DNA of 64,000 nt from Methylopila capsulata (GTDB lineage Bacteria; Pseudomonadota; Alphaproteobacteria; Rhizobiales; Methylopilaceae), in the NCBI RefSeq assembly GCF_016907975.1, contig NZ_JAFBCY010000004.1, positions 62,001 to 126,000 on the forward strand, written 5' to 3'. The notes under the pieces were generated by a model, which made no database searches, was not told where the DNA came from, and saw only the letters and a list, made by a program, of their open reading frames with translations. Position 1 is the stretch's first letter. Each line of letters opens with the position of its first letter. Shown here one piece after another: positions 3,719-41,901 of this stretch. Position numbers and translations under genes: made by a program.

Positions 3719-4492
3719 TCACTTCTCGACGAAGGCCTTCTCGATCACGAAGTGCCCAGCCTCGCCGTGGTTGCCCTCTTCGTAGCCGCCGTCGACCAGC
3801 AGCTGGCGGGTGTCGCGGATCATGTCCGGGCTTCCGCACAGCATGAAGCGGTCGTTCTCTTTCGACATCATCGGCAGGCCGATGTCCTCGAACAGCTTGC
3901 CGGAGGCCATCAGGTCGGTGATGCGGCCGCGGTTGCGGAAGGGCTCGCGCGTGACGGTCGGGTAGTAGATCAGGCCCTCGCTCACGAGCTCGCCGATCAG
4001 CTCGTCCTTCGGCAGGCCTTCGGTGATCAGCTCGCCATAGGCGAGTTCGCTCACCTGGCGGCAGCCGTGGACCAGCACGACCTTCTCGAAGCGCTCGTAG
4101 GTCTCGGGGTCCTTGATGATCGACAGGAACGGCGCGAGGCCGGTGCCGGTGCCGAGCAGGTAGAGGTTCTTGCCTGGCAGCAGGTTGTCGAGCACCAGCG
4201 TGCCGGTCGGCTTCTTGCCGACGAGGATCGGGTCGCCGACCTTGAGATGCTGGAGCCGCGAGGTGAGCGGCCCGTTCTGAACCTTGATCGAGAAGAACTC
4301 GAGCTCCTCGTCGTAGTTCGCCGAGACCACCGAATAAGCGCGCACCAGCGGGCGGCCCTCGACCTCGATGCCGATCATCGTGAACTCGCCGTTGCGGAAG
4401 CGGAACGACGGATCGCGCGTGGTGCGGAAGCTGAACAGGGTGTCCGTCCAGTGCTTCACGTGGGTCACGCGCTCTTCAAGATACTTGCTCAT
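3719..4492 (-). CDS. fpr: Ferredoxin-NADP+ reductase
   Basis: A 257-residue FAD flavoprotein that moves electrons between NADP(H) and ferredoxin or flavodoxin in the cytoplasm. It shows the FAD-binding RAYSVVSANY motif (about residue 50), the NADP-site LLGTGTGLAPFLS (about 113) and a late LCGSPDMI segment. The C-terminal end AFVEK is typical of the bacterial subclass seen in Rhodobacter-type Fpr, as I recall. It lies 27 bases downstream of fdxA and ahead of a strong terminator, so the two form a short operon. These two proteins could supply electrons to the neighbouring ferredoxin/flavoprotein module, but no shared regulatory element ties them to it. Confidence 0.93.
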   Translation of the reverse strand: MSKYLEERVTHVKHWTDTLFSFRTTRDPSFRFRNGEFTMIGIEVEGRPLVRAYSVVSANYDEELEFFSIKVQNGPLTSRLQHLKVGDPILVGKKPTGTLVLDNLLPGKNLYLLGTGTGLAPFLSIIKDPETYERFEKVVLVHGCRQVSELAYGELITEGLPKDELIGELVSEGLIYYPTVTREPFRNRGRITDLMASGKLFEDIGLPMMSKENDRFMLCGSPDMIRDTRQLLVDGGYEEGNHGEAGHFVIEKAFVEK

Positions 4493-4519
4493 CGTCTCTC
4501 GGTCTCTCAGCTCGCGTCG

Positions 4520-4858
4520 TCACGCCGCCGCCGGATCGGACGCCCCGAACACGGCTTCGAGCTTGCCCGACGCCCCGTCCCAGACGGCGGCGTCCGCGGG
4601 CGGCTCGCCTTTCTCGGTCACGTTCGGCCAGACGGCCGCGTATTTCGCGTTGAGCGCGATCCAGCCCTGCAGGTTCGGCTCGGTGTCGGCCTTGATGGCC
4701 TCCGCCGGGCATTCGGGCTCGCACACGCCGCAGTCGATACACTCGTCCGGGGCGATGACCAGCATCGTCTCGCCCATGTAGAAGCAGTCCACCGGACACA
4801 CTTCCACACAATCCATATACTTACACCGAATGCAATTTTCGGTGACGACATACGTCAT
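4520..4858 (-). CDS. fdxA: 7Fe-type ferredoxin FdxA
   Basis: A 112-residue ferredoxin starting [17 protein letters not shown]. The first cluster region ([14 protein letters not shown]) has the spacing of a [3Fe-4S]/[4Fe-4S] protein. The second ([12 protein letters not shown]) is a complete four-cysteine [4Fe-4S] motif. The C-terminal extension to 112 residues matches the usual FdxA length. It acts as a low-potential cytoplasmic electron carrier, and the adjacent Fpr gene strongly suggests it is that reductase's partner. The start ATG is the only sensible one, since the first cysteines follow immediately. Confidence 0.95.
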
Positions 4859-4901
4859 CGCGCGTCGCTTTCCAATGGGGAAGAACGCAGATCGGTTCCG
4901 C

Positions 4902-5813
4902 TCACAGCGCGCGGAACACGTCCTGGCCTTCGAGGTTGATCGCGAGGCCCTGCAGGCCGTCGGCCGTGAGTTCGCCGCCCATGGCCTTGAGGCTCTCCTC
5001 GCGGATGAGCGACATCAGGCCGCGGCGTAGCGCCAGAAACTCCGACGACATGGTCATGGCAGGAAGGCGCGGGCGGGGCAGCGGCACCGCGATCTCGGCT
5101 TTGATCTCGCCCGGCCGCGCCGTCATCACGTAGATGCGGTCCGACAGGAAGATCGCCTCGTCGAGATCGTGGGTCACGAACAGCACCGAGATCTTCAGCC
5201 GCTGCCACATGTTGGTGAGGATCTGCTGCATGATCAGGCGCGTCTGGGCGTCGAGCGCCCCGAAGGGCTCGTCGAGCAGCAGGATGCGCGGGCCGGTGGC
5301 GAGCGCGCGGACGATGCCGACGCGCTGCTTCATGCCGCCGGACAGCCGGTCCGGATAGTGGTTCTCGAACGGGGTGAGCCCGGCGAGCCCCAGCAGCGTG
5401 CGCGCCGCCCGCGAGCGTTCCGAACGGCCCATGCCCTTCATCTTCAGCCCGAACTCGACATTCTCCCGCACGGTCTTCCACGGGAACAGCGAGTACTGCT
5501 GGAAGATCATGCCGCGGTCGGCGCTCGGCCCCGTGATGGGCTCGCCGTCGACCGTGACGACGCCGCGCGTGGGCTTCAGGAAGCCGGCGAGCGCGTTCAG
5601 CAGCGTGGACTTGCCGCAGCCGGAGGGGCCGATGATCGAGACGAACTCGCCGGGCTCGACCGTCAGGTCGACGCTGGAGACCGCGTCGGTCGCGCCGTCG
5701 GCGGTGTCGTAGGTCAGGCCGAAGCCGCGAACCTCCACCCGTCCCTTGGTGGTCTTCGGCGGCGCGTAGGACGTGTCGGCGTCCGCGCTCTGCAGGAAGG
5801 CGGGGGCGGTCAT
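4902..5813 (-). CDS. SsuB/TauB/NrtD-type ABC transporter ATP-binding protein
   Basis: The ATPase of a nitrate/sulfonate/taurine-family importer, 303 residues. It shows Walker [10 protein letters not shown], the Q-loop FQQYSLFPW, the signature LSGGMKQR, Walker [13 protein letters not shown] and the switch His in VTHDLDEA. The start at 5813 (MTAPAFLQS) is fixed by an ATGA overlap with the stop of the upstream permease gene, implying translational coupling. Four further codons upstream are in frame but would break that junction. The family cannot be split by sequence into nitrate, sulfonate, taurine or cyanate uptake; the neighbouring redox genes suggest a sulfur or nitrogen source. Confidence 0.92.
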
Positions 5814-6700
5814 CGTGCGCTCCATGGCATCAGGAGGCGGCCGACCAGCCGGATCGCCCAGCTCGAGGCGAGGCCGAGCACGCCGATCGCAAGCATGCCG
5901 AGCGCGATGTCGGAGTACTGGACCAGGCTGTAGGCCTCCCAGGTGAAGTAGCCGATGCCGAACTGGCCGGAGATCATCTCCGCCGCGATCAGCGACACCC
6001 AGGCGACGCCCATGCCGACCGTGAGCCCGGTGAAGATCTGCGGCAGCGTCGCCGGCAGGTAGACCTCGCGGAAGGTCGCGGTCTCGGTCGCGCCGAGGCA
6101 GCGGGCGGCGCGCACCAGCACGGGATCGACGGTCGCCATGCCGTGCAGCGTGTTGAGCAGGATGGGGAAGAACGAGCCAAGGAAGGTGATGAACACGATC
6201 GACTGCTCGTTGGTGGGCCACAGCATGATCGCCATCGGCACCCAGGCGATGGCGGGGATCGGCCGCAGCACCTCGGAGACGGGGAAGACGATCTCGCTGA
6301 GCAGCTTGAAGCGCCCCATCAGCAGGCCGAGCGGCACCGCGAGCGCCGCGGCCAGCAGGAAGCCATAGAGAATGCGGCGGCAACTGATCGCGACGTGCTG
6401 GAAAAACGTCGCCGTCGCGAAGGCGGTCCGCGCGCTCTCGAGCACGTCGGCGGGCGACGGCACGTTCATGAAGCGGACGTAGATGTTCACCCGGTAGGTC
6501 GTGAGCAGGTGCCAGGCCAGCACGAAGGCCGCGACTGAGAGCGCGCCGACGAGCACGGCGCGGATCTCGCCGCGGTGGCGGCGCGCCATGCGGAGGAGGG
6601 GGGCCGGCCGCGGCGGCGAGGGCGCCGCGGCCGGAGCGGTCGTCTCGCGGGCCGCCGGGGGAGGCGTCTCGCGGGACGATGAGATGGCGGCGGTCTGCAT
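5810..6700 (-). CDS. SsuC/TauC-type ABC transporter permease
   Basis: A 296-residue inner-membrane permease. A Pro/Ala-rich N-terminal tail of about 35 residues precedes the first membrane helix (VLVGALSVAAFVLAWHLL). The core contains further helices and the EAA-loop region around RAARCLGATETATFREV, where the ATPase docks. The start ATG at 6700 lies 5 bases after the binding-protein stop, and the end overlaps the ATPase start as ATGA. The order binding protein, permease, ATPase is standard for this importer family. An in-frame extension reaching back to 7342 lies inside the binding-protein gene and is not coding. Confidence 0.92.
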   Translation of the reverse strand: MQTAAISSSRETPPPAARETTAPAAAPSPPRPAPLLRMARRHRGEIRAVLVGALSVAAFVLAWHLLTTYRVNIYVRFMNVPSPADVLESARTAFATATFFQHVAISCRRILYGFLLAAALAVPLGLLMGRFKLLSEIVFPVSEVLRPIPAIAWVPMAIMLWPTNEQSIVFITFLGSFFPILLNTLHGMATVDPVLVRAARCLGATETATFREVYLPATLPQIFTGLTVGMGVAWVSLIAAEMISGQFGIGYFTWEAYSLVQYSDIALGMLAIGVLGLASSWAIRLVGRLLMPWSAR

Positions 6701-6705
6701 GCGCC

Positions 6706-8130
6706 TCAGCCCGCCGTCGCGGCGGTCAGCGCGTCTTCGAACGGCGCGACCTTGCCGCCGGCTTTCGTCGCGAAGGCTTCGGCGTCCTGCTTCAGCATGA
6801 AGGGGGTCACGCCCGCCTTCGGGTCGATCACGTAGAACGCCTTGTCGGCGAACAGCTTGATGCCGCGGGCGGCGTCGAACACGTAGGCGACGTTCATCGC
6901 CGTGCCCTTGGTCTGCATGTCGCGGTAGGCCGCGAGCGTGCAAGAGGCGCTGGAGAAGGCCAGGATGTCGCCGTCCTTCACCCAGATCTCGCCGGCCTTC
7001 CGCGGCTCGGTGATCGGCTTCTTGCAGAAGGCGTCCTCGCCGCTCACCTCGTAGTTCGCGGTGCTCTTCACGGCGGCGTCGTAGTCGAGGCCGCGCGCCT
7101 TGAAGGCCGCCCGCAGGTAGCCGTCGTTGACCCAGGGATCGACGTCGAACGGCGTCTTGATGCGGTCGAGGCTCTGCAGGACCTTCACGTCCTCCTTGGC
7201 GGCCGCGATCAGCGGCGCCTTGAGGGTCGGGTCCATGGTCATGATGCCGCCGGGCCCAAGGAAGATGTAGACGACCTCCTTGTCGGTCCCGGTCCATTCC
7301 GAGATCTTCTCGGCGGCTCGCTTCGGGTCGCTCTTCACCCATTCGTTGGCGTCGAGCACCGCCTGCAGGTAGGCGTCCACGATCTCCGGATACCTCTCCG
7401 CAAAGTCGGTGCGCACCACCACTCCGTGCCAGGTGGGGAGGTTGGTCTGCACGCCGTCGAACACCTTGCGGGCGAAGCCGCGGAACGGCAGCAGCTCGGC
7501 GAAGGGCACGAAGTCGGCGTGGGCGTCGATCTTCTGCTCCTTCAGATTGGTGGAGCCGACCTCCGGGCTCTGGCTCACAAGCGTGAAGAAGTCCTTCGGC
7601 ATCTTGGCGTCCTGCATCGCCTTCAGCAGCATGCCGTGGGCGGCGGAGCCGAAGGGGACGCTGACGACCTTCCCCTTGAGGTCCTCCAGCGCGAAGTAGG
7701 GCGAGTCCTTGTGCACCACGACGCCGTTGCCGGAGCCGTCGAGGTTATAGGCCGCCACCGAGATCAGCTGCGTCTTGCTCTCGGGGTTCGACTGGAAGGT
7801 GTAGCCGTTCACGACGAGCGGGTAGTCGCCCATGCCGCCGAACTGCAGCTTGCCGGCCATCATGCCGTTGGTGACGGGCGGCCCGGAGGTGAAGTTCTGC
7901 CAGTCGAGCTTGATGTCGAGGCCGGCGTATTTGCCGTCCTTCGGCAGGTGCTTCTCGATCAGCTTGAGCTGGCGGAGCACGACTCCGGTGGTGACGGTGT
8001 TGGTCGTCGTGTCCTGCGTGCCGATGCCGACGATCAGCGTTTCGGCGGAGGCGGGCGCGGCGAGACTGACGCCCGCGGCGATCAGCGCGGCGAGCGAGGC
8101 CGCCGTGCGGGAGAAGGTCGGGAAGGCCAT
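6706..8130 (-). CDS. NrtA/SsuA-type ABC transporter substrate-binding protein
   Basis: A periplasmic receptor of 474 residues. A signal peptide (charged start, hydrophobic stretch, cleavage near APASA-ETL, about residue 29) precedes a NrtA/CmpA/SsuA-like fold. Recognisable features are VGIGTQDTTTNTVTTG near the N-terminus and an HGMLLKAM segment in the first half. It is longer than typical SsuA or TauA (about 320 residues) and closer in length to NrtA/CmpA. The start has the ribosome site GAGGTGA. It heads the importer operon, with the GGCAACTAAT element about 105 bases upstream. Its ligand is unknown; linkage to an AprA-like flavoprotein makes a sulfur compound the leading guess. Confidence 0.88.
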   Translation of the reverse strand: MAFPTFSRTAASLAALIAAGVSLAAPASAETLIVGIGTQDTTTNTVTTGVVLRQLKLIEKHLPKDGKYAGLDIKLDWQNFTSGPPVTNGMMAGKLQFGGMGDYPLVVNGYTFQSNPESKTQLISVAAYNLDGSGNGVVVHKDSPYFALEDLKGKVVSVPFGSAAHGMLLKAMQDAKMPKDFFTLVSQSPEVGSTNLKEQKIDAHADFVPFAELLPFRGFARKVFDGVQTNLPTWHGVVVRTDFAERYPEIVDAYLQAVLDANEWVKSDPKRAAEKISEWTGTDKEVVYIFLGPGGIMTMDPTLKAPLIAAAKEDVKVLQSLDRIKTPFDVDPWVNDGYLRAAFKARGLDYDAAVKSTANYEVSGEDAFCKKPITEPRKAGEIWVKDGDILAFSSASCTLAAYRDMQTKGTAMNVAYVFDAARGIKLFADKAFYVIDPKAGVTPFMLKQDAEAFATKAGGKVAPFEDALTAATAG

Positions 8131-8501
8131 GGCTCACCTCGTTGGAAGCTGGGGTCATCCGCCGGGGCATCCCGACACAGGGATGATCCGGCCCGACCCC
8201 GCCGAGGATCAAACGGAGATGGCCGATCGCGGTTGATTAGTTGCCAAGAAAGCGGGCTCGCCTAAAAACACGCCGTCCTGCCGGAGCGACGCGCGTGGTT
8301 GGGGCAGGGTTTTGGAGGGAGAAGGACGCCCGCTCTGCGCGTGTCGTCGCTCCGCGCCGGGACACCACGGGCCGAGCGACGCGACGGGCGCACCCGTCGA
8401 GGCGCGTTCTTCGATCGCAGCTGTGGGGGTGTTCGCTCCGGCCTAAACCGGGATGCGAGCGCGGCCTCGCCAGCGCCCTGTCGCCCCAAATCCCGCTCAG
8501 G
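8131..8501. other. Regulatory intergenic region upstream of the importer operon
   Basis: 371 bases between the binding-protein start and the end of the crp-like gene. The part next to the importer holds the GGCAACTAAT element and presumably the operon promoter. The part near 8290-8500 is GC-rich without a recognisable gene, RNA or strong terminator. Frames crossing it are arginine-rich shadows. Confidence 0.5.
8236..8245 (-). promoter_or_regulatory. Shared operator-like element, importer copy (GGCAACTAAT)
   Basis: On the minus strand the sequence reads GGCAACTAATCAACC, about 105 bases upstream of the binding-protein start. The first ten bases are identical to those at 12881-12890, upstream of the DUF971/flavoprotein operon. 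The repeat at the heads of two functionally linked units, with a Crp-family gene between them, suggests a common binding site. Confidence 0.45.
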
Positions 8502-9287
8502 TCAGGCGTCGCCGCCGCTCTTCATCTGCGCCAGCACGTCGGGTTTGCGCAGCACGATCTGCGAGCGGCGGACCTCCAGCACGCCTTGAGCGCTCATGCG
8601 CTTCAGGCTGATGGTGATCCACTGCCGCGTCGCGCCCACCATGTGGGCGAGGTCGGCATGGGTGAAGGCGGCCGCGATCGCGACCCCGCCGTCCTCCTCC
8701 TCGACGCCGTAGAGGTCGGCGAGGTGGAGCAGGAGGTGCGCCAGCCGCTCGGTGATCGAGCGGGTGCCGAGCATCTGCGCCAGCGCCGAGTAGCACTTGC
8801 CCTTGAATGCCACGCCCTCGATCACGTTGACGGCGAGCGTCGGGATCTGGGTGACGAGGTCCTTCAGCGTGCGGCCCGGAAGGTGCAGCACCGAGCTGTT
8901 GCTGGCGGCCATGCCCGACCAGCAATGCTGGCCGGTGCCGAACACCTCGGGCCCGCCGACGAAATTGCCCGGATACCAGTAGGCGAGGGTGATCTCGCGC
9001 CCCGTGGGGGCGGCGTAGAACACGCGGATGCGGCCGGTCTCTATCAGCCAGATGCCGTCGTGCGGGGTTTCCTGGCTGAACAGCGTGGCGCCGCGGTAGA
9101 GCACCCGGCGACGGGCGCGCTCCATCACCAGCGCGGTTTCGCGCTCCGTCAGCCCCTGGAGCATCGGCTTGGGGCCGCGCTCCGGGGCCTCGCCGTCGGC
9201 GAGCAGAAGCGCGGAGGCGCGCGCGGGCTCCGCGGCGGCCTGCGGGCGGAGCTGGGGCGGCCAGGCCAGAGGGACGGTCTGCTGCAT
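8502..9287 (-). CDS. Crp/Fnr-family transcriptional regulator with unusual recognition helix
   Basis: A 261-residue regulator. After about 50 variable residues comes a cyclic-nucleotide-binding-type beta-roll (ATLFSQETPHDGIWLIETG), then the dimer helix and a Crp-type winged helix-turn-helix (FTHADLAHMVGATRQWITIS). No FNR-type N-terminal cysteine cluster is visible. The recognition helix reads TRQWITISLKRM where CRP/FNR relatives usually have TRETVSR-like residues, so its DNA target probably differs. The ATG at 9287 is preferred because GGGAG lies 8 bases upstream; a longer frame would start at a TTG at 9350. It sits between the importer operon and the HEAT/ferredoxin/flavoprotein operon and is the obvious candidate regulator of both. 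Confidence 0.9.
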   Translation of the reverse strand: MQQTVPLAWPPQLRPQAAAEPARASALLLADGEAPERGPKPMLQGLTERETALVMERARRRVLYRGATLFSQETPHDGIWLIETGRIRVFYAAPTGREITLAYWYPGNFVGGPEVFGTGQHCWSGMAASNSSVLHLPGRTLKDLVTQIPTLAVNVIEGVAFKGKCYSALAQMLGTRSITERLAHLLLHLADLYGVEEEDGGVAIAAAFTHADLAHMVGATRQWITISLKRMSAQGVLEVRRSQIVLRKPDVLAQMKSGGDA

Positions 9288-9340
9288 CGCGGATCTCCCG
9301 ACATCGCACGTGGTGCGCTGCAGCAGAGCATAGGATTGTT

Positions 9341-9354
9341 TTGATTCCAATCAG
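9341..9354 (-). promoter_or_regulatory. FNR/CRP-like palindrome upstream of the crp-type gene
   Basis: TTGATTCCAATCAG matches the FNR/FixK consensus TTGAT-N4-ATCAA at 9 of the 10 defined positions. It lies 54 bases upstream of the chosen ATG at 9287. A TATGCT hexamer lies only about 17 bases away on the minus strand. If that is the -10 box, the site overlaps the promoter core and would suit repression or autoregulation. Confidence 0.45.
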
Positions 9355-9452
9355 CGGCTGGGCGCTGCGCGGCTTCGTGACCGCGCCGACGCGAAAAAAG
9401 CCGCCGGAGGGGGCTCCGACGGCTTTGATTTCGAAGGTCGATGCGTGCGGGG

Positions 9453-10412
9453 TCAGGCCCCCTGGCAGCGGCCGATCGCCCAGCGGATGAGCTTGCGGAC
9501 GTCCGGGTCGGGATCGTCCATCGCCCGCTCCAGCCAGGGCAGCGCCGCGGGGGCCGCGATCTCGCCGAGCGCCGCAGCGGATTCCTTGCGCAGGTTCGGG
9601 ATCTCGCTGTCGAGCGCCTTGCCGAGCCCCTCGACCGCGCTCTCCGCGCGGAGCCGCCCGAGGGCGTTCGCCGCCTTCACCCGCACCTGCCAGACCTCGT
9701 CGCCCAGCGCGGCGATCAGCGCCGTGGTCGCTTCCGGCAACCGGATCTTGGCCGAGACGATCGCAGCCTCCTCGCGCACCTGCCAATAGGGATCCGAAAG
9801 CCCAGCCACCAGCGTCGTCGCGCCGGGACCGCCGGGGCGCACGAACACCAGGGCCGACATGGTGGCGCGGCGGACCGAGGGGTCCGCGTCGGAGGCGGTC
9901 GCGATCAGCGCCGGCATCGCCTCCTCGGCCTTCAGCCAGCCAATGACGCCGAGGCCCTCGCGGCGCACGTCGGGGGAGGGGTTGCGCAGCGCCTTCAGCG
10001 CCGCGGCGAGCGCGTCCGGCAGCGTCAGCTCGCGCAGCGCTCTCAGCGCCGCGGCCTGCACGAACGGATCGGAGTGCTCCGCCCGCTCGATCAGCAGCGG
10101 GCCGCAGGCGGGCTCCTTCTTGTCGGCGAGCGTCTCGGCGGCCGCATGGCGCACCGCGTCGTCCGGGTCCTCCAGCGAGCCGACGAGTCCCTCGACGACC
10201 TCGGGGCCGTCGTGTTCGTCCAGCGCCTTGGCCGCGGCGGCGCGCACCTGCGCGTCGGGATCGCCGAGGCCCTTCAGGAGCAGCACGGTCGCCTCAGGGC
10301 CCACCTGCTCGGCGAGCTCCATCATGGCGACGCGGCGGACGCCGGCGTCGGGGTCGGAGCAGCGCTCCCGGAGGTCGTCGAGATCGTCGTCGAAGGCGTC
10401 GAACACGGGCAT
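9453..10412 (-). CDS. HEAT-repeat protein
   Basis: A 319-residue protein made almost entirely of about ten HEAT/PBS-lyase-like repeats of roughly 31 residues. Each has a helix pair and a D-x-(D/S)xxVRxxA core (for example DPDAQVRAAAAKAL and DPYWQVREEAAIVSA). Such solenoids are scaffolds or chaperone-like partners; no catalytic motif is seen. The N-terminus is acidic (FDAFDDDLDDL). There is no signal peptide, so it is cytoplasmic. It follows the small ferredoxin gene by 12 bases in a tight operon with the AprA-like flavoprotein, so it probably assembles or bridges that complex. This role is inferred from position only. Confidence 0.88.
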   Translation of the reverse strand: MPVFDAFDDDLDDLRERCSDPDAGVRRVAMMELAEQVGPEATVLLLKGLGDPDAQVRAAAAKALDEHDGPEVVEGLVGSLEDPDDAVRHAAAETLADKKEPACGPLLIERAEHSDPFVQAAALRALRELTLPDALAAALKALRNPSPDVRREGLGVIGWLKAEEAMPALIATASDADPSVRRATMSALVFVRPGGPGATTLVAGLSDPYWQVREEAAIVSAKIRLPEATTALIAALGDEVWQVRVKAANALGRLRAESAVEGLGKALDSEIPNLRKESAAALGEIAAPAALPWLERAMDDPDPDVRKLIRWAIGRCQGA

Positions 10413-10424
10413 GGGTCTGGTCCC

Positions 10425-10658
10425 TCAGCGCAGCAGGTAGGGGATGTTGACCTTGACCGCGCCGGTCGGGCAGTCGGCCTCGCAGGGCATGCAGTACCAG
10501 CACTCGTCGTACTTCATGAACGCCTTCTTCCGCCCCTCGTCGATTGCGAGGATGTCGAGCGGGCACACGTCCACGCAGACGGTGCAGCCTTTTTCCGCGA
10601 TGCACTTCGCGTCGTCGATGACGACCGCCGCGCTCTTGGCCTGGGTGATGATCGGCAT
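10425..10658 (-). CDS. Two-cluster [4Fe-4S] ferredoxin, AprB-like
   Basis: A 77-residue iron-sulfur protein. The first cluster motif is C-x5-C-x2-C-x3-CP (CIAEKGCTVCVDVCP) and the second C-x2-C-x2-C-x3-CP (CWYCMPCEADCP), sufficient for two [4Fe-4S] clusters. The YDECWYCMPC segment and the short tail resemble the beta subunit of adenylylsulfate reductase, as I recall that family. It lies 10 bases after the flavoprotein stop and 12 before the HEAT gene. A flavoprotein/ferredoxin pair in this order mimics aprBA-like or frd-like modules, so it is best read as the electron-transfer subunit of the neighbouring flavoenzyme. Confidence 0.92.
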   Translation of the reverse strand: MPIITQAKSAAVVIDDAKCIAEKGCTVCVDVCPLDILAIDEGRKKAFMKYDECWYCMPCEADCPTGAVKVNIPYLLR

Positions 10659-10668
10659 GGTCTCGTCC

Positions 10669-12408
10669 TTACTCGGCCGCGGCCGGCGTCTTCACGCGGA
10701 GCTGGTGGTAGGCGGCCATCTCGTCGGCCTCGACGGCGACGACGTAGGGGTCGACCTCGCGTTTGGCGTGGGCCATCCGGCCCTGCTCGTCCTTGTAGAG
10801 AACGGTGTGGCAGAACCACTCGTCGTCGTTGGTCTCGGGATGGTCGACGCGCAGGTGGTAGAAGCCCCAGCGGCTCTCGGTGCGGTAGAGCGAGGCGGCG
10901 GCGGCCATGTCGGCGCAGTCGAGGATGGTCTGCATCTCGAGCGCGCGCAGCAGCTCGTGCGGATCGCGGACGCAGAGCTCGGACAGGTCGTCGCGGATCT
11001 CCGCGAAGCGGCGCTGCGCGATCTCCATCTTCGCGGTGACCTTCGGCGGCTCGAGGTAGTCGTTCACCAGCCGGCGGGTCTTGAACTCCATCTCGTTCGG
11101 CGTCAGGCCGTCCTCGCGGCGTGTCGGCGCCAGCACGCGCTCTTGTTCGGCGGCGAGATAACCCTCGTCGTAGTCGGTCAGTTCGACGTTGGCGCAGTAT
11201 TCGGCGGCGTCACGGCCGGCGATGCCGCCGTTCACGAAGGCGCCCAGCATGTAGTTGTGCGGCACGCTCGCCATGTCGCCGACCGCATAGAGGCCGGGGA
11301 TGGTGGTGCGGGCGTTCTCGTCGACCCAGACGCCCGAGGCGGAGTGGCCCGAGCAGAAGCCGATCTCGGAGATGTGCATCTCCACAGGCCGCTTGCGGTA
11401 GTCGTTGCCGCGGCGCTCATGGAAGCGGCCGCGCGAGGGCCGCTCGTTGGTGTGCAGGATGGTCTCGATCTCGGAGATGGTCTCCTCGGCGAGGTGGTCC
11501 ATCTTGAGGTAGACCGGGCCGTTGCCGCTCTGCAGCTCGCGCCAGAACTCCAGCATCATCTGGCCCGACCAGTAGTCGCACTCGATGAAGCGGTCGCCCT
11601 TGTTGTTGGCGGTGTAGCCGCCGAAGGGACCCGTGACGTAGGCGCAGGACGGGCCGTTGTAGTCCTTGATCAGCGGGTTGATCTGGTAGCACTCGAGGTT
11701 CGCGAGCTGGGCGCCGGCATGGTACGCCATGGCGTAGCCGTCGCCGCAGTTCGCGGCGTTCTCGTAGGTGCCGAACATGTAACCGGAGGCCGGCAGGCCG
11801 AGCCGGCCGGCGGCGCCGCAGGCGAGCACCACGGCCTTGGCCTTCACCACCAGGAAGTCGGAGGTGCGGGTGTTGACGCCAACCGCGCCGGCGATGCGGC
11901 CGTCCGGCGCCTTGAGGAGCCGGGTCGCCATGTAGCGGTTGGTCACCGCCACCTGCAGGCGGCGGAGCTGGCGGTACAGCACCTTCTTGACGTTGTGGCC
12001 GTCCGGCATCGGCAGCACGTAGGTCCCCATGTGGTGGACCTTGCGCATGTTGTATTCGCCGGAACCGTCCTTCTCGAACTTCACGCCGAGCTTGTCGAGA
12101 TACTGGATCATCGGGAAGGAGCCGGTGGCGTAGGCCATCACCGCCTTCTGGTTGACGATGCCGTCGTTCGCGACCGTGATCTCCTTCACATACTGCTCGG
12201 GCGTGGCGTAGCCCGGCACCACGGCGTTGTTCAGCCCGTCCATGCCCATGGAGATCGCGCCGGAGCGCTTGACGTTGGCCTTCTCCATCAGCACGACCTT
12301 GAGGCCGGGGTTCGCCTCCTTAGCCTTGATGGCGGCCATGGGCCCGCCGGTGCCGCCGCCGATGACCAGGATGTCGGCCTCGATGATCTCGGTCTTGGTG
12401 TCGGTCAT
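10669..12408 (-). CDS. AprA/FrdA-family flavoprotein subunit
   Basis: A 579-residue FAD enzyme of the fumarate reductase/succinate dehydrogenase/adenylylsulfate reductase superfamily. The N-terminal Rossmann motif is ILVIGGGTGGPMAAIKA, followed by KANVKRSGAISMGMDG. The late FAD motif is TIPGLYAVGDM, and GHSASGVWVDE lies just before it. The KRSGA and GHSxxGxWV segments look closer to AprA than to FrdA, but the APS-binding residues cannot be verified by eye. There is no Tat signal, so it is cytoplasmic. Co-transcription with a ferredoxin and a HEAT protein, and linkage to a NrtA/SsuA-type importer, suggest it reduces or oxidises the imported compound or a product of it. Annotation as plain fumarate reductase would be misleading. 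Confidence 0.85.
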   Translation of the reverse strand: MTDTKTEIIEADILVIGGGTGGPMAAIKAKEANPGLKVVLMEKANVKRSGAISMGMDGLNNAVVPGYATPEQYVKEITVANDGIVNQKAVMAYATGSFPMIQYLDKLGVKFEKDGSGEYNMRKVHHMGTYVLPMPDGHNVKKVLYRQLRRLQVAVTNRYMATRLLKAPDGRIAGAVGVNTRTSDFLVVKAKAVVLACGAAGRLGLPASGYMFGTYENAANCGDGYAMAYHAGAQLANLECYQINPLIKDYNGPSCAYVTGPFGGYTANNKGDRFIECDYWSGQMMLEFWRELQSGNGPVYLKMDHLAEETISEIETILHTNERPSRGRFHERRGNDYRKRPVEMHISEIGFCSGHSASGVWVDENARTTIPGLYAVGDMASVPHNYMLGAFVNGGIAGRDAAEYCANVELTDYDEGYLAAEQERVLAPTRREDGLTPNEMEFKTRRLVNDYLEPPKVTAKMEIAQRRFAEIRDDLSELCVRDPHELLRALEMQTILDCADMAAAASLYRTESRWGFYHLRVDHPETNDDEWFCHTVLYKDEQGRMAHAKREVDPYVVAVEADEMAAYHQLRVKTPAAAE

Positions 12409-12444
12409 GGGGCGTCTCGTCTGTCTGGGGAGATCGTGGCGGTC

Positions 12445-12813
12445 TCAGGCGGCGCGGGCGGGCGCAGGCGCCGCGGCGCAGCCTTCGGCCAGCTGACGGA
12501 TGTAGGTCCAGGGGTAGATCCCGCGGTCGTGCCCATCGGAGAAGCTGAGGTGCGCGGCGTAGCCGCCGATCAGCTTCACGTCGGTCGCGGCGACGGCCTC
12601 GAAGCGTGCGGGGAAGCGATCCTCGATCCGGGCGCGGGTGCACCAGGCGCAGCGGCAGTTCAGGCGGAGCGTCTCGGCGGCGACCGTGGCCTCCGCGCCG
12701 TCGATGAACGTCAGCCTGAGATCGAGCCCGCCGCGCGCGACGGTCACGGCCTCCGGCGCGTCGGCCGGGTCGAAGGGCGGCGGCGCGACCAGCGCGGCGA
12801 GGCCGTGATCCAT
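12445..12813 (-). CDS. DUF971 (gamma-butyrobetaine hydroxylase N-terminal-like) protein
   Basis: A 122-residue protein with the DUF971 fold signature: a C-x-C-x2-C segment (CRCAWC) and a late SDGHDRGIYPWTYIRQL stretch. In other proteins this domain is fused to iron-sulfur carrier ATPases or to Fe(II)/oxoglutarate hydroxylases and is thought to bind metal. Here it stands alone and starts the flavoprotein operon, 36 bases ahead of it, so a role in cluster or cofactor delivery to that enzyme is plausible but unproven. A GGCAACTAAT element lies about 68 bases upstream of its start. Confidence 0.85.
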   Translation of the reverse strand: MDHGLAALVAPPPFDPADAPEAVTVARGGLDLRLTFIDGAEATVAAETLRLNCRCAWCTRARIEDRFPARFEAVAATDVKLIGGYAAHLSFSDGHDRGIYPWTYIRQLAEGCAAAPAPARAA

Positions 12814-12877
12814 GAGGGTTCGCTCCTGAACGCGATGTCCTTGAGGTCAGGAGACAGGAGGGGGTGATCGCGCGACA

Positions 12878-12889
12878 GCAATTAGTTGC
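12878..12889 (-). promoter_or_regulatory. Shared operator-like palindrome, flavoprotein-operon copy
   Basis: GCAATTAGTTGC has perfect 4-base half-sites (GCAA/TTGC) around a 4-base centre, the geometry of Crp/Fnr-family operators. On the minus strand it begins GGCAACTAAT, identical to the element ahead of the importer operon (8236-8245). It sits 65-77 bases upstream of the DUF971 start. The regulator encoded at 8502-9287 is the likely ligand. Confidence 0.5.
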
Positions 12890-13054
12890 CGCATCGGCTC
12901 GTTTGGCCGGGGCGCGCCTTCGACGGCGAGCGCGTGAAGCCCGCAGGGCATCCGGGGCAGGGTGGGCAGATCCGCCGAGAACGGCTGTTCAGCCCGCGCG
13001 CAGGCCGGGCTAAGGTCCGTCCCAACGCGTCAAGAAGCGCCAAGGGAGAGCGGC

Positions 13055-27206: not shown

Positions 27207-29273
27207 TCAGTCGATATTGATACCTTCTGCACGCGCTTTCTCGATGGTGTCCAACAGGACGACGCATTGTTTTTCTGTTGGAATTTTCATCGGCATCTGC
27301 ATGGCGACGTTCAATATGCCGATCTCCTTCGGCGTCAGTAGACGCTTGGCAGCAAGCGTTTCATGCACAGCGATCCATCTGGCCGCCGGGATCGCGAAGA
27401 CCTTCGTCTGCGCCTCAATGCCGTTATCCACCTTCTGGGTATTCCGGGCAGCCCGCTTTTCAGACAGATGATCGTCGCGGGACAGACATTCGCAGTCGAA
27501 CTCATCCGGCAGAAGGTCGGCAAATTCGTCCATATTTTCCAGCATCCGCGTCCAGCAGGCCTCACGCTTGGCCCATTCCGAAATGTTCGAAATACCCTGC
27601 ATCGGGCGCAGGAGGTCATCGTTCACGCGGGAAGCCACAACCGCGATGGTGCTTTCAAGGACAGGACTTATCGCCTGCGCATTCCAGACCCGCTGAAAAT
27701 CGAGACTTTTTTCCTGCCGCCTTGTCAGTTCGCTGAGAACGGCCAGCGTATAGGCGACGATGTTGGCGCGATAACCGTTGTTATACCACGGCTGCGCTGA
27801 CACAATCCGTTCGGTCGCACGGAATATGATTCCTCGCGCAACGGCGCGTTTGAAGTACGCTTCGTTGAAGCTGTCCGACGACTTGTCCCATTCCTTGCCG
27901 ATTCGGGCAGCGTAGCGGGCGAAGTTCTTTTCGGCTCCAAGGTTCACGTATCGCGGATGGTCATCCCAGACGTTCTCGAACTTCGCAAGATCCGTCTTGG
28001 TCAGCATCTGCGGCTTCGGATTTTCCGCCTTGAACCGCTTCTGCTCGGCAGGGGTGAGTTTGGCCTGCGCATCCGCATACTGACCACGGGCACGTTCATA
28101 AAACCACTTGGTTTCCCGCTGCGCACCTTTGCCCGCAGGCGCCCATAGGCGCCGGGAAAACTCCTCCATACGGATATGATACGCATGGTTTGAGAAGAAA
28201 TCCGCAGCCTGAACCCGGTTCTGGGTATTGGCGTACTCGGAAATACGCGGAACGACCTTCTCGCTCTCCTCGTTGTCAATCACGGACAGCTTCATCTGCA
28301 CGAATATCTGCGTGAGGTCGGCTTTGTCCTTCCTGCGGGTGTGGAACAGCGATGCGGTGGTCTGACCGCCATTCACAATCTGAAGGTCGGTTATCCTAGT
28401 GATCTGGAGGCCGTCGCCGGTCCGCTTCGTTTCGACCCCCTGGGCCGTGGCCGTGATGCCGTTGTTGTAGGCGAAGAACATACCCGGCTCAGTCATGATG
28501 GTTGTGCGGATACCTTGGTTGACCTTCGCTCTGGCCTGAAGAAACGTGCGGACGTTCTGCTCCAGCAGCCTCGCGCCGAACTTCTCGTATATTGTCGAAA
28601 GGATCGGTCCCGGCATGACGACGAGATAGGACTGATAGGCATCTGTCCCCAGATGGGCGGGAAGGCAGGATATGCCGGTTCCGAACATCGCCTCGAAGTC
28701 GAGGTCCAGCGCCTCTTTGTGGCTGCGGGAACTGCGCTGGCGGTGAAGGCGGGAGATATCCCAGATGTGAAAGCTCGTTGCGATACCGGCTGTCTCGGCA
28801 TCCGGTAGCGCCTGAATCCGGTCGCTCAATATACGCTCGGAAACGAGAATAAGATTGAGATGCCGGATCAGTGATTTCCTGTCCGCGATCTGCCTTGCGA
28901 GGCCATATTCCGGCGACGTGATTTCCAGATCAGCCGCCAGATTCTTCCGCAGACTGGCGTCGAAGAAATTGACCGCACGCTTGAACGCGGCATCAACATC
29001 GGTGCGGGTAAGTGATGCCAGCTCGGTGCGGCTGTCGAAATCCGCGACGAAAAGGTTCAGACCGCCTTCGTCGTTGAACCAGTATCCGTCCACACGCATA
29101 CCGCGCTGCGCTCGATAGTGCGCGAACTCAAAGCCCTCCGTGAACCCCGTCTCTGTCAGCTCGCGGGACACGACATCCATGAACTCGGCCAGCAGGAAGC
29201 TGCCGTTCGCCTCGGCCCCGGCCAGCAAATCCTGACGGAAATCATGGAAGAACTCTTCGGCGGTCGTTTCCAA
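27207..29273 (-). CDS. AIPR-family abortive-infection protein (Mza component)
   Basis: A 688-residue protein of the AIPR family (abortive infection phage resistance). Recognisable parts are the central PGMFFAYNNGITATAQG and ITDLQIVNGGQTTASL segments, the strongest signatures of the family. Nothing in the sequence names its biochemical activity. The start is a TTG immediately after the TGA of the upstream gene, supported by GGAGG 7 bases before it. It is the last gene of the defence operon and lies at the left end of the element. In systems described as Mza (Gao et al. 2020, as I recall) an AIPR protein accompanies MutL-like and Z1 proteins, as here. Confidence 0.88.
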   Translation of the reverse strand: METTAEEFFHDFRQDLLAGAEANGSFLLAEFMDVVSRELTETGFTEGFEFAHYRAQRGMRVDGYWFNDEGGLNLFVADFDSRTELASLTRTDVDAAFKRAVNFFDASLRKNLAADLEITSPEYGLARQIADRKSLIRHLNLILVSERILSDRIQALPDAETAGIATSFHIWDISRLHRQRSSRSHKEALDLDFEAMFGTGISCLPAHLGTDAYQSYLVVMPGPILSTIYEKFGARLLEQNVRTFLQARAKVNQGIRTTIMTEPGMFFAYNNGITATAQGVETKRTGDGLQITRITDLQIVNGGQTTASLFHTRRKDKADLTQIFVQMKLSVIDNEESEKVVPRISEYANTQNRVQAADFFSNHAYHIRMEEFSRRLWAPAGKGAQRETKWFYERARGQYADAQAKLTPAEQKRFKAENPKPQMLTKTDLAKFENVWDDHPRYVNLGAEKNFARYAARIGKEWDKSSDSFNEAYFKRAVARGIIFRATERIVSAQPWYNNGYRANIVAYTLAVLSELTRRQEKSLDFQRVWNAQAISPVLESTIAVVASRVNDDLLRPMQGISNISEWAKREACWTRMLENMDEFADLLPDEFDCECLSRDDHLSEKRAARNTQKVDNGIEAQTKVFAIPAARWIAVHETLAAKRLLTPKEIGILNVAMQMPMKIPTEKQCVVLLDTIEKARAEGINID

Positions 29274-30245
29274 TCAGGGCCTCCGGAACATATCGGCTTC
29301 ATCGCAGGAGAACGGCGTTATCGCCTCCAGCATGATATCGTAGGAAACCTTGGTGATGCCGGGTGGCAGTTCCGAGCGGATCAGGCGGGGAAACCCATCG
29401 GTCACGCGGTATCCCTGAAGGCCGCCGACAATGAAGCGCGGAGCATCGTATTCCGCGAGCGGCACGTAGCTCATGCCTGCGAGTTTGTCGGCGAACTGCT
29501 CTATGGCATCGGCATCCCCCAGCTCGCTGTCGATTAGCCCGACAATGCCGTTCAGTGACAATGCCTGTCCAGCATCAGGCTGACTGCTCAGGCGCTGGGT
29601 CAGGAGAAACAGCTCATCAGCGAGCGATTCCAACTGATCCTCGGACGAAATGCGGACGGTGCTGCGCTCCCGACCGGAAAGCGATTTCACCTCGATGGCC
29701 CGGTTGCCGAAAATGAAGTCCTGATGGGAATCGTCCGGTCCACACCAAGCATCGACCGCAGCGGCCTGAGGCAGAGTATCCTGATAGAGAAGCCGCAGAA
29801 CGTGCAGCTCGCCGAACAGACCGCGCACCTCTCCAGGTGAGAGAAGGCGAGCATTGCGCCCGGCCAGAAACGCTTTCCAGCGCCGCAGATGGGCAAGTGC
29901 GACGGCCAGTGCCGTCGCCGGATCAGCAACATCTCTAAGGTTGCCGATAAGCGTTTCACAAAGGCCAAGGAACAGATCGCTGTCGATATGTCGAGCAAGG
30001 GTGAGAACAAACCGCTGCTGTCCGACACCATCGCCGTTTCGGAGATCGACGCTGATACCGTGCAGGGAGACCATGTCACGGCGGAACTGCACGGTGTGAT
30101 CGCCGTCCAGCTCTATAATCAGCAGGCACTGCGCTCCGGCATCGCGGCCCCAGAAGATGGCAACACCCGTCGTTCCCGCGACGCGGAGAACATTGAGATC
30201 AGCCGCCGGTGTCGGAATAGCGTCCCACGGCGCGGACCTACTCAT
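29274..30245 (-). CDS. PD-(D/E)XK-motif protein, DUF4420 family (Mza component)
   Basis: A 323-residue predicted nuclease-fold protein. The core is GLFGELHVLRLLY, followed by an Asp (SHQDFIFG) and the E-x-K of RAIEVKSLSG, together a plausible PD-(D/E)XK site. Its stop abuts the AIPR TTG start and its start overlaps the end of the Z1 gene, so translation is probably coupled. Two in-frame ATGs (30251, 30245) exist; the second is better spaced from the GAGG ribosome site. DUF4420 proteins occur with Z1 and MORC-type ATPases in predicted restriction-like operons (Iyer, Abhiman and Aravind 2008, from memory), which supports a DNA-cleavage role in defence. Confidence 0.85.
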   Translation of the reverse strand: MSRSAPWDAIPTPAADLNVLRVAGTTGVAIFWGRDAGAQCLLIIELDGDHTVQFRRDMVSLHGISVDLRNGDGVGQQRFVLTLARHIDSDLFLGLCETLIGNLRDVADPATALAVALAHLRRWKAFLAGRNARLLSPGEVRGLFGELHVLRLLYQDTLPQAAAVDAWCGPDDSHQDFIFGNRAIEVKSLSGRERSTVRISSEDQLESLADELFLLTQRLSSQPDAGQALSLNGIVGLIDSELGDADAIEQFADKLAGMSYVPLAEYDAPRFIVGGLQGYRVTDGFPRLIRSELPPGITKVSYDIMLEAITPFSCDEADMFRRP

Positions 30246-32919: not shown

Positions 32920-34391
32920 GCGAATCCTCCCTGAATGTAATTCTCAACGATCTCCCCGTGATCGTCAAAGAGTCGTGTCGATCTGACAATATCCCTGAAT
33001 GCATCCGCATTCCCCGGCCTGTCACCCCACAGAGCGCGTCTGAGGTCGTCAAGGCGATCCTTCACGTCATCGACCTGCGGCATCTGGCTCACGTCGCGGG
33101 GGTGCGTCGAATAATCCGAGTAGATCATCTCAACGGGCAGTGATGCTGAAACTGCTTCCAGCAGAAGGTCGAGGTGACGCACGCCTTCGCTGTCCAGTTT
33201 CTCGTGCAGGCGCTGTGCCAGCGGATGCGTCCTGTTCAGGGCATACCGGATGCCAGTCTTGTCGGCATATCGCTCCCACAGCGGCGCGGTAATTTCATGG
33301 AAGAGCTTCTGGCCGCGCGCCCGGTGAACGGTCGTGCTTGCACCTGAGACCTGCGCGATAATCTGCCGGAGCCGTTCCCTTACTGGCAGCGGCGGACGGG
33401 ATCGCGACTTCTTGATATCGATGGTCCACGCCTCATCGAGGCTGTTCGGAAAGTCGATCTGAACGCGGGCCAGCTTGGTCGCTTCCCCCTTCGGTATCAG
33501 CCGGAACCAGTCACCCCACGCCATCAGCCTGCCGTTGCGGTAGATGTAGGCTCCCTGATTGGAGATGAAATCGCTGCGGTTCTGATAGAAATCGTATTCG
33601 CGCGCCGTCAGGTTCGAATGGTGTGGAAGGATGTACGGTTGCAGATGCACCGCTGCCGATCCGATCCGCACAATCTCTTCCGGCAGATGCCTGGTATGAG
33701 TGTTTTTGCGGCAGAATGGGTCAAAGGCTTCGACCGGATGTCCGTTCACCGTGATCGCGATGCGGCCCCGGCCTCGGATTTCACCGACCAGAAAACGGTG
33801 GAAGACGAGCGCTAGATGCTTCTCCAGAACATCCAGCTTCTCATTTACGATCTCATCCCGGCGGTTGCCGGTTTCATCCTCCAGCAGGCGATCCATTTCC
33901 CGCCAGATGATGGCGGTGCCGTGTACACCAAGGTGGTCCACGTATGGTAGAGCCGCGATATCCTCTTCGTCGAGAATGCTGAGAATCCAGTCATCTGCCT
34001 GGTCGATAACGTCAAGGTTCCATTCAGCCCCTGACAGGCTGCCATCCTTTGCGCTCACGACGGTGAGGGAGCGGCATTGAGAGAAAGAGGCGGTTTTGAG
34101 ACCGAGCCCGAACCGACCCAAGTCTTTGGGGGATCGCTCCATGCGCGGATTTGCGGCCCCATGCCGCATGGCCACCAGAAGCTCGGCTGCGTCCATGCCA
34201 CGCCCGTTATCAAGGATGACGAGGACGGGCTGCGGAACTGACGGTTCACAGAAGATATCGATCTTCGACGCATCGGCGGAGATGCTGTTGTCGATAAGGT
34301 CTGCAACCGCAGCTTCAAGCGAATAGCCCAGATCGCGCATTGAGGCAGAGAGGCAGGCCGCACTTGGCGGAAGCGGGATATTTCGTGCCAT
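32916..34391 (-). CDS. MORC/MutL-type GHKL ATPase (Mza component)
   Basis: A 491-residue GHKL ATPase. The Bergerat fold is visible as the N-box EAAVADLIDNSISADAS, the G1 box LDNGRGMD and the G2 box GRFGLGLKTASFSQ. A second, S5-like domain follows, with a conserved-looking Lys segment (IDIKKSRSRPPLP) that may reach the nucleotide. There is no MutL-type C-terminal endonuclease motif. ATP-driven dimer clamping on DNA is the family behaviour. The start overlaps the vsr stop by one base (TGATG), and GAGG precedes it by 7 bases. Iyer et al. (2008) linked such proteins to restriction-modification operons and to the origin of MORC. Confidence 0.9.
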   Translation of the reverse strand: MARNIPLPPSAACLSASMRDLGYSLEAAVADLIDNSISADASKIDIFCEPSVPQPVLVILDNGRGMDAAELLVAMRHGAANPRMERSPKDLGRFGLGLKTASFSQCRSLTVVSAKDGSLSGAEWNLDVIDQADDWILSILDEEDIAALPYVDHLGVHGTAIIWREMDRLLEDETGNRRDEIVNEKLDVLEKHLALVFHRFLVGEIRGRGRIAITVNGHPVEAFDPFCRKNTHTRHLPEEIVRIGSAAVHLQPYILPHHSNLTAREYDFYQNRSDFISNQGAYIYRNGRLMAWGDWFRLIPKGEATKLARVQIDFPNSLDEAWTIDIKKSRSRPPLPVRERLRQIIAQVSGASTTVHRARGQKLFHEITAPLWERYADKTGIRYALNRTHPLAQRLHEKLDSEGVRHLDLLLEAVSASLPVEMIYSDYSTHPRDVSQMPQVDDVKDRLDDLRRALWGDRPGNADAFRDIVRSTRLFDDHGEIVENYIQGGFA

Positions 34392-36426: not shown

Positions 36427-36433
36427 ATTGACT

Positions 36434-36631: not shown

Positions 36632-36657
36632 GTGATCAGCCCCACAGCGGATAAGCC

Positions 36658-36685
36658 ATTTTAGCTATTTCATGCGTGCTCGCAA
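36658..36685 (-). promoter_or_regulatory. Sigma-70-type promoter of the defence operon
   Basis: On the minus strand TTGCGA (36685-36680) and TAAAAT (36663-36658) are separated by 16 bases. The -10 box ends 26 bases before the antitoxin-like ATG, leaving a short leader. It is the only good promoter match seen ahead of the seven overlapping defence genes. Confidence 0.5.
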
Positions 36686-36830
36686 TGCCATTGTTGTGGC
36701 GACCGATGAAGTGATTTCGCCCGTGTCAACGTCGAGAAACAGGACGAGCACATGCCGCATTGGCGCGGCGATGCCGCGCGATGGCAGGCTGCGCTGCGAT
36801 ATGTAGGGTCTCCGCGCCGCCCGCCATCGG

Positions 36831-37097: not shown

Positions 37098-37098
37098 G

Positions 37099-41880: not shown

Positions 41881-41901
41881 ATCAAGACAAGGAGATCAGC
41901 C

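Follow-up and report, generated by a model that had tools for sequence, protein, structure and literature searches.

Assimilation of sulfonates, as known from aerobic bacteria, depends on the oxygenases SsuD and TauD, and to our knowledge the way in which bacteria release sulfur from sulfonates without oxygen has remained unsolved for decades. The described systems that are closest to the locus presented here are the importers SsuABC and TauABC, the adenosine 5'-phosphosulfate (APS) reductase AprAB, and the 3'-phosphoadenosine 5'-phosphosulfate (PAPS) reductase of Methanothermococcus thermolithotrophicus (structure 8a8o), which pairs an FAD-containing alpha subunit with a ferredoxin-like beta subunit, the latter carrying two [4Fe-4S] clusters and transferring electrons with the participation of a Trp (PMC10322725). 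Additionally, a "ferredoxin/APS reductase/GntR" module with a sulfonate transporter was drawn in 2025 on plasmids of Acidithiobacillus (Fervidacidithiobacillus) caldus, including pTcM1, and its operons were predicted from annotation, for this one species, to take up and assimilate organosulfonates (PMC12375680). The section of that paper concerned with these operons does not discuss the HEAT-repeat protein, the operator, the spread over phyla or the residues that are considered below. Our analysis concerns ten genes of Methylopila capsulata contained in a 64,000-nt stretch of contig NZ_JAFBCY010000004.1 (positions 62,001 to 126,000), the whole of which is referred to as the window. With moderate confidence, we interpret them as a dedicated sulfur-acquisition module, in which the import of a sulfo compound would be followed by the ferredoxin-driven reductive release of sulfite.

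All ten genes are in the minus strand (3719-12813) and form two operons and one separate regulator gene. The enzyme operon encodes, in this order, a DUF971 protein, a flavoprotein (FLAV), a two-cluster ferredoxin (FDX) and a HEAT-repeat protein (HEAT), with gaps of 36, 10 and 12 nt. The importer operon encodes a receptor, a permease, an ATPase, the ferredoxin FdxA and a ferredoxin-NADP reductase (Fpr); its genes are separated by 5 nt, an overlap, and 43 and 27 nt, respectively. Between the two operons lies the gene of a Crp-type regulator. By their spacing and their company in near relatives, the FdxA and Fpr genes look like a part of the importer transcription unit. All ten assignments are based on Pfam or NCBIfam matches and on homologues found in like company elsewhere, which argues that these open reading frames are not chance readings. 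The original prediction of two operons and a regulator in the minus strand at 4902-12813 was right in its coordinates and in the length of the 579-residue flavoprotein; all reading frames that it listed are present, and what it missed were FdxA, Fpr and a NosL-like domain of the receptor.

The conservation of this gene set was studied in 398 sampled genomes of Pseudomonadota, 21 of which, including that of the window, encode a protein exceeding the cut-off of the NF006131 family, to which FLAV belongs. In the 20-kb regions of the other 20 carriers, FDX and HEAT are encoded near FLAV in 20/20 and a NosL-type receptor in 18/20. A larger collection of 106 loci comprised these 20, 80 loci of named contigs (the best 80 of at least 514 relatives), five plasmid loci and the window; the 80 named loci lean to close kin, and the loci are not independent of each other. 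FDX and HEAT were found near FLAV in all 106, a NosL-type receptor in 88, DUF971 in 85, a Crp-type regulator in 40, Fpr in 37 and FdxA in 33. Genes of the fetched loci were called by a simple codon-usage caller that misses some small genes (FDX was called in 88 loci and detected by tblastn in 106), and the tblastn counts of permease and ATPase can include other importers. When counted by genus label (32 named and 10 unnamed, with possible overlap), FDX and HEAT are present in 42/42 and the receptor in 38/42. Among the 18 loci without a NosL-type match, 11 of at least 19.9 kb are devoid of a module-type receptor core (L033, L051, L053, L068, L069, L070, L075, L081, L100, L118 and L132), three are on shorter contigs, and four encode the core with no NosL match.

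Gene order varies among the 106 loci: FLAV-FDX-receptor-HEAT-DUF971 occurs in 21, DUF971-FLAV-FDX-HEAT-receptor in 25, and the rest have other orders, so that the set appears to have been kept together through rearrangement. The order, whose conservation next to SsuA/NrtA-type receptors the original prediction had proposed to examine, is variable; the set is kept across phyla. It is found in proteobacteria, cyanobacteria and actinobacteria, with further cases from plasmids of Acidithiobacillus, Nostoc, Pseudanabaena, Leptolyngbya, Tsukamurella and Nonomuraea. In Nostoc, the FLAV and FDX genes are separated by others, and the receptors encoded nearby resemble that of the module to only 24-26%; in Tsukamurella, the importer adjoins a FLAV-HEAT fusion. 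The A. caldus plasmid pTcM1 carries the GntR, FLAV, FDX, HEAT and FdxA genes of the module. The receptor is represented on pTcM1 by a short NosL-like piece only, near permease and ATPase genes and an ISL3 element (L138:16065-18870), and FdxA is followed in the A. caldus copy by a 1153-aa FAD-dependent oxidoreductase with a Pyr_redox_2 match only (L138:10574-14035).

Although the family name of NF006131/PRK08275 and of the fused NF010374/PRK13800 is "fumarate reductase/succinate dehydrogenase flavoprotein subunit", the function in this name is not supported by the residues that we compared. FLAV is a full member of NF006131, with 1071 bits vs. the cut-off of 587. Its scores are far under the cut-offs of the AprA model (TIGR02061, 153 vs. 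641.75 bits; 976-1091 bits for six AprA comparison proteins) and the SdhA/FrdA models (TIGR01812, 159.6 vs. 567.3; TIGR01816, 122.5 vs. 727.35; fum_red_Fp, 129.2 vs. 932.7), and likewise of the NadB model. Among solved relatives, the alpha subunit of PAPS reductase is the closest by sequence (217 bits over the full length, vs. 150 for AprA and 86 for SdhA). It is also the closest by fold: a Foldseek search with the AlphaFold model of FLAV placed 8a8o first (TM 0.82), followed by AprA (1jnr, 2fja) and fumarate reductase, with a second AprA structure, 3gyx, only at the 17th position. The model has pTM of 0.82, but pLDDT is below 50 in several stretches around the flavin, and therefore the residues of FLAV (numbered with Met1 as the first) were compared in sequence alignments. 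In a tree of 39 rows, 29 FLAV rows of proteobacterial, cyanobacterial and actinobacterial origin and seven AprA rows, six of them verified by hidden Markov models (HMMs), are on one side, and two SdhA/FrdA rows and NadB on the other (SH-aLRT support of 100%; 88% for the FLAV clade itself); it is a quick tree with long outgroup branches, calculated without PAPS reductase.

The AprA positions N74, W234, R265 and H398 of A. fulgidus, which we take to be catalytic, are matched in FLAV only in part. Asn60 and His355 align with Asn74 and His398, while Tyr215 and Leu246 occupy the places of Trp234 and Arg265; the Asn and the Tyr are present in 29/29 FLAV rows, and the Leu and the kept His were read from the printed alignment rows. 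In this comparison with the AprA active site, of the kind that the original prediction had proposed, the full Asn-Trp-Arg-His set is not found in FLAV. The Arg replaced by Leu is kept in APS and PAPS reductases alike. Additionally, FLAV is only 27% identical to the PAPS reductase 8a8o, and the region of the PAPS-binding loop described for the latter (PMC10322725) is occupied in FLAV by a KVHHxGxYVLPMP-type stretch. The loss of the Arg and the unlike loop region suggest that the chemistry of FLAV may differ from that of these reductases. As to SdhA/FrdA, presumably characterized by the covalent-FAD His, the HPT His and the NRLG Arg, their features are gone in FLAV, where Gly50, Asn244 and the stretch HNYMLGAF are found instead; the SdhA of the same genome carries RSH, HPT and NRLG in the same alignment. 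Judged by these comparisons, FLAV belongs on the side of the APS/PAPS reductases but is expected to act on a substrate of its own. An ordinary succinate dehydrogenase or fumarate reductase is ruled out as the identity of FLAV by the tree, the HMM cut-offs and the residues. A true APS/PAPS reductase of sulfate assimilation is not favoured, considering the lost Arg, the different substrate loop and the presence of a PF01507 (CysH-family) gene in 21/21 carriers. The dedicated module proposed in the original prediction holds up on both points on which it depended, since FLAV groups apart from ordinary FrdA/SdhA and the gene set is spread far beyond close relatives.

The eight Cys residues and the CW pair (W54) of FDX are invariant in 88 called homologues. 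The CW pair is presumably a feature of AprB, and FDX thus exhibits the AprB trait of two [4Fe-4S] clusters with a CW pair. However, its score is under the AprB cut-off (TIGR02060, 34.7 vs. 135.65 bits; model positions 6-65 of 132 only), and FDX ends where the AprB model continues for a further 67 positions. The best of its several NCBIfam matches, all weak and under cut-offs, is HgcB (38.8 bits, cut-off 99). The HEAT protein, originally proposed as an assembly or cofactor partner, now looks more like a subunit of the enzyme than a factor that serves assembly on its own. In Tsukamurella, it is fused to FLAV in a protein of 893 aa, and the NF010374 model (898 positions), of which positions 8-567 match FLAV and 631-894, in its C-terminal part, match HEAT, describes such a fusion; HEAT is therefore a probable subunit or dock of FLAV. 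In the case of DUF971, the CxCxxC motif is present in 58/70 called module homologues. The iron-sulfur carrier HCF101 is reported to have such a motif in its C-terminal DUF971, the function of which is called elusive (PMC7980591). On four cyanobacterial plasmids, HEAT is followed by a gene encoding Mrp/NBP35. A role of DUF971 in iron-sulfur metabolism would fit both the motif and these plasmid genes. An abundant DUF971 protein was reported elsewhere, and the report does not state in the part concerned whether it belongs to such a module (PMC6865838).

The importer, originally described as of SsuABC/NrtABC type, was confirmed in its receptor, permease and ATPase. The structure model of the receptor is good (pLDDT 92), and the first eight matches to its fold are structures of TauA and SsuA, which rank above NrtA and CmpA. 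Although the receptor scores below the SsuA and TauA cut-offs (SsuA_fam, 125.3 vs. 163.5 bits; taurine_ABC_bnd, 64.7 vs. 304.25 bits), it resembles both in its predicted fold and, by alignment, in the Gln and Ser-Gly at the sulfonate contacts. In TauA, the sulfonate is contacted by the side chain of Gln30 and by the main chain of Gly61, Gly79 and Thr132, and the amine by Glu106, Thr132 and Asp205 (PMC6906117). Gln39 (kept in 97% of 91 receptors) and Ser82-Gly83 (in 100%) are at the sulfonate-contact places, whereas the places of Glu106 and Asp205 are taken by Asn135 and His235, each in 100% of the 91. The retention of the former and the replacement of the latter suggest that the ligand is a sulfo compound but not taurine, and that it may carry a second acidic group; taurine itself is not favoured as a substrate. 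Other differences from the SsuABC and TauABC systems are the extra NosL-like domain and the associated enzyme genes, which are not those of SsuD or TauD. A NifA-dependent sulfonate-transporter operon has been described, its membership in a module of this kind not being stated in the section concerned (PMC8305402).

The fold of the receptor is shared by NrtA/CmpA-type proteins, and Pfam places FLAV in the wider FAD_binding_2/Succ_DH_flav_C family. Both these facts would suit a non-sulfo substrate (nitrate, bicarbonate, a carboxylate or another anion) that FLAV would reduce or oxidise by hydride chemistry resembling that of fumarate reductase, as would the 76/117 loci without any probed sulfur gene nearby. 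We consider it quite unlikely, given the ranking of TauA/SsuA above NrtA/CmpA, the residues of SdhA that FLAV does not have, and the sulfur genes and sulfite exporters that recur near a third of the loci. The NosL-like domain could, in turn, indicate the import of a copper-bound or copper-protected compound, with copper handling as the central function; the core of the receptor contains the invariant Met100 and two invariant His residues (H204 and H235), and genes of SCO1-like, PCuAC and cytochrome c proteins adjoin the module in a few loci. However, the ligands of the copper chaperone NosL are not found, as no Cys, Met or His of the NosL-like domain is conserved among the 91 receptors, and thus copper binding is not supported; the SCO1-like cluster occurs in 9/106 loci and the PCuAC cluster in 5/106. 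Copper import via this domain is therefore not favoured, and we regard such an explanation as highly improbable. In seven loci (L094, L097, L105, L113, L124, L131 and L133), a SCO1-like gene and a gene of a membrane protein with no Pfam match are within or just after the importer operon, together with a PCuAC gene in five and a cytochrome c gene in six of them.

The two operons are preceded by a common palindromic sequence, CAACTAATYRMY (also written GGCAACTAAT or GGCAACTAATTGC), which is a candidate operator. A search for palindromes with exact half sites of 5-6 nt revealed none that both operons had in common in at least two loci; the site described here was later spotted by eye in the upstream sequences and tested. 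GGCAACTAATTGCT and GGCAACTAATCAAC are the only two sites of the window with at most one mismatch (0.07 expected), and the whole genome of 4.1 Mb has no occurrence of CAACTAATYRMY other than these two, one in front of each operon. Five other genomes contain 1, 2, 0, 4 and 2 sites, 8/9 of them at the module and one (G159:C22) elsewhere, while a control with the reversed pattern gave 1, 0, 2, 0, 1 and 0 matches in the six genomes. When sites within 300 nt upstream and with up to 2 mismatches of 14 were scanned for, loci with a Crp-type regulator had one before a gene of the enzyme operon in 33/40 cases and before the receptor gene in 30/38, both being present in 26, vs. 4/52 and 0/46, respectively, in loci with a GntR-type regulator; the background for the enzyme and receptor scans was 118/3000 and 46/3000 random windows. 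The pattern was derived from the sites of the window and its kin, so that the fit there is not independent, and the genome-wide count and the comparison with GntR-type loci are the better tests. This distribution makes the importer and enzyme operons look like one regulon in Crp-type loci, with the Crp-type protein, which in the window has a cNMP-binding domain and a Crp-type helix-turn-helix, as the putative binder of the shared site. A gene of the GntR family is in the region of 55 loci (a UTRA domain was found in one scanned). Three cyanobacterial loci encode a LysR protein that is extended at its C-terminus by a domain sharing about 36% identity with the receptor core (L140:7670-9670, L143:7394-9430 and L151:9655-11670); of the two scanned, those of L140 and L143, one exceeds the cut-off for an NMT1-type match in Pfam. 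These plasmid regulators look as if they sensed the ligand of the importer and may share a sensor fold with the transporter.

The co-occurrence of their genes, the common candidate operator and the importer beside the FLAV-HEAT fusion in Tsukamurella strengthen the link between the importer and the redox proteins. The earlier proposal that the flavoprotein-ferredoxin pair acts on the imported compound gains from this link, and we find it likely that FLAV does so.

The neighbourhood of FLAV was probed for sulfur genes by tblastn in 117 loci, the resulting counts being lower bounds, with a background count for YeiH only. A sulfite exporter of the YeiH or TauE type was found in at least 20/117 loci, and at least one probed sulfur gene in 41/117. 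Additional loci with YeiH-type genes are apparent from the gene clusters (e.g., L093, L094 and L113). The 21 carriers, drawn without regard to YeiH, include 19 with a total of 25 YeiH-family genes (two further pieces of one gene were counted once), and in six of the 21 YeiH is located within 9 kb of FLAV, with 0.17 expected within 20 kb. More cases of exporters near FLAV are those of Halomonas, Marinobacter, Azoarcus, Aquabacter and cyanobacteria; in Pseudanabaena, YeiH and TauE directly follow Mrp. In Sinorhizobium chiapasense, the 12 kb upstream of the module copy contain ssuD, tauD and genes for the transport of sulfate and sulfonates, and 9/10 of the sulfate-receptor neighbours are from the Burkholderia-Caballeronia-Trinickia group. 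The fold of the receptor, the sulfite exporters and the sulfur-scavenging neighbours in a part of the loci are the reasons why we read the substrate as a sulfonate or another sulfo compound.

A supply of low-potential electrons would be suited by Fpr and FdxA in the operon and by an Rnf-type operon that is located downstream of the FLAV, HEAT and FdxA genes in three loci of gammaproteobacteria (L078, L079 and L095; Rnf genes were checked with Pfam in L078 and L095). The same proteins could in principle work in the oxidative direction, with FLAV oxidising an imported reduced sulfur compound and electrons leaving via FDX, FdxA and Fpr to NADP, as APS reductases run both ways in nature and ferredoxin-NADP reductases are reversible in principle. 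Yet an NADPH-ferredoxin reductase beside assimilatory sulfur genes would better suit reduction, and the Rnf genes would point to the reduction of ferredoxin, which makes the oxidative direction very unlikely in our view.

Several observations weigh against a module for reductive sulfur acquisition. In 76/117 loci tblastn detected no probed sulfur gene, although a few of these carry a YeiH-type gene in gene clusters; five of the six genomes with YeiH near FLAV are of one genus (g5). Fpr and FdxA are encoded near FLAV in a minority of the 106 loci, and 18 of these loci have no match to a NosL-type receptor. FDX alone is not singled out by HMMs as AprB-like, HgcB scoring above AprB, and FLAV differs from AprA at Arg265 and from PAPS reductase in the nucleotide-loop region. 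Finally, SsuD exceeds its cut-off in 18/21 carriers, and every carrier has a CysH-family gene; the module would thus be an addition and not the sole sulfur route.

Our proposal starts from what is directly observed, i.e., the gene content, its conservation, the placement of FLAV and the sequence common to both operons; what we infer are the substrate class, the electron path, its direction, the product, the roles of HEAT and DUF971 and the binder of the shared site. The SsuABC-like importer would take up an organosulfonate or some other molecule that ends in a sulfo group. Electrons would pass from NADPH via Fpr and FdxA to FDX, which, docked with HEAT on FLAV, would reduce its FAD. The reduced FAD would attack the sulfo group as in APS/PAPS reductase, releasing sulfite to be assimilated or, where YeiH/TauE-type exporters occur, exported. 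DUF971, or Mrp/NBP35 in cyanobacteria, would supply iron-sulfur clusters, and the Crp-type regulator would control both operons via the GGCAACTAAT palindrome. A more specific version, which we put forward only tentatively, is that FLAV, FDX and HEAT constitute an oxygen-independent reductive desulfonase that breaks the C-S bond of an organosulfonate via a flavin-sulfite adduct with electrons from ferredoxin, a widespread alternative to oxygenases of the SsuD/TauD type, and that the Crp-type regulon consists of just the two operons. Alternatively, with the same importer and electron path, the sulfo group could be bound to sulfur or to oxygen with a good leaving group (thiosulfate, S-sulfocysteine or a sulfate ester), a thiolate, sulfide or alkoxide being displaced with no C-S bond cut. 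This would keep the logic of APS/PAPS reductases, in which the leaving group is good, and would agree with the sulfite exporters and the electron supply from ferredoxin; a soft sulfur ligand could be suited by Met100, H204 and H235, which are in the core of the receptor. The receptor fold is, however, nearest to alkanesulfonate receptors, and other uptake systems are usual for thiosulfate and sulfate esters, so that we consider this possibility unlikely.

As compared with AprAB, whose AprA subunit falls on the FLAV side of the tree and away from SdhA and NadB, and with the two-subunit PAPS reductase, the module appears to combine an enzyme resembling AprAB with a HEAT partner and an importer of its own, to which a dedicated operator is added in Crp-type loci. 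The absence of an assigned function for this combination, assumed in the original prediction, no longer holds entirely, as a function of the A. caldus relative has been predicted in print (PMC12375680); an experimental report on the module was not found in the literature searched, which is a weak absence, most subscription journals being outside it. The module can be regarded as a named, widespread and testable candidate for the oxygen-free release of sulfur from sulfonates. A family annotated in public genomes as fumarate reductase/succinate dehydrogenase is suggested to be something else, associated with a receptor, ferredoxins, a HEAT partner and a partly dedicated operator. If its substrate is found, a single gene set would serve as a marker for the use of that sulfur source in soil and plant-associated bacteria, in methylotrophs, and in cyanobacteria and actinobacteria.

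The coordinates of the genes and of the candidate operator sites are listed in Table 1. The nearest named genome among the matches listed is of Methylopila, with FLAV 98% identical.

Table 1. Genes and candidate operator sites of the M. capsulata locus (positions in the window)
Feature	Position	Strand	Basis and remarks
DUF971 (GBBH-like_N) protein, first gene of enzyme operon	12445..12813	-	Pfam PF06155, 62.3 bits (cut-off 22.8); motif CxCxxC (CRCAWC)
FLAV, AprA/PAPS-reductase-related FAD flavoprotein, 579 aa	10669..12408	-	NCBIfam NF006131, 1071 bits (cut-off 587); closest structure 8a8o; tree
FDX, two-[4Fe-4S] ferredoxin, 77 aa, resembling N-terminal part of AprB	10425..10658	-	Pfam Fer4_7
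HEAT-repeat protein	9453..10412	-	PF13646, 204 bits
Crp/Fnr-type regulator, cNMP-binding and HTH_Crp_2 domains	8502..9350	-	PF13545, PF00027
Importer receptor, SsuA/TauA-like core and C-terminal NosL-like domain	6706..8130	-	NMT1 and NosL matches; SsuA_fam, 125.3 bits (cut-off 163.5)
ABC permease	5810..6700	-	PF00528
ABC ATPase, start overlapping permease stop (ATGA)	4902..~5813	-	PF00005; start read from sequence
FdxA ferredoxin	4520..4858	-	NF045490, 161.6 bits (cut-off 135)
Fpr-like ferredoxin-NADP reductase	3719..4492	-	PF00175, PF00970; best NCBIfam PRK10926, 175 bits (under cut-off 390)
Candidate operator GGCAACTAATTGCT	12877..12890	-	63 nt before DUF971
Candidate operator GGCAACTAATCAAC	8232..8245	-	101 nt before receptor gene

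Outside the module, the window contains an apparent integrated element (27207-44412) that encodes an AIPR abortive-infection protein, a Z1-domain protein, a MobA/MobL relaxase and a large serine recombinase, the end of the latter overlapping tRNA-Ser. A second NMT1-type ABC importer adjoins the gene of a sigma-54-dependent PAS regulator at 51123-56242.

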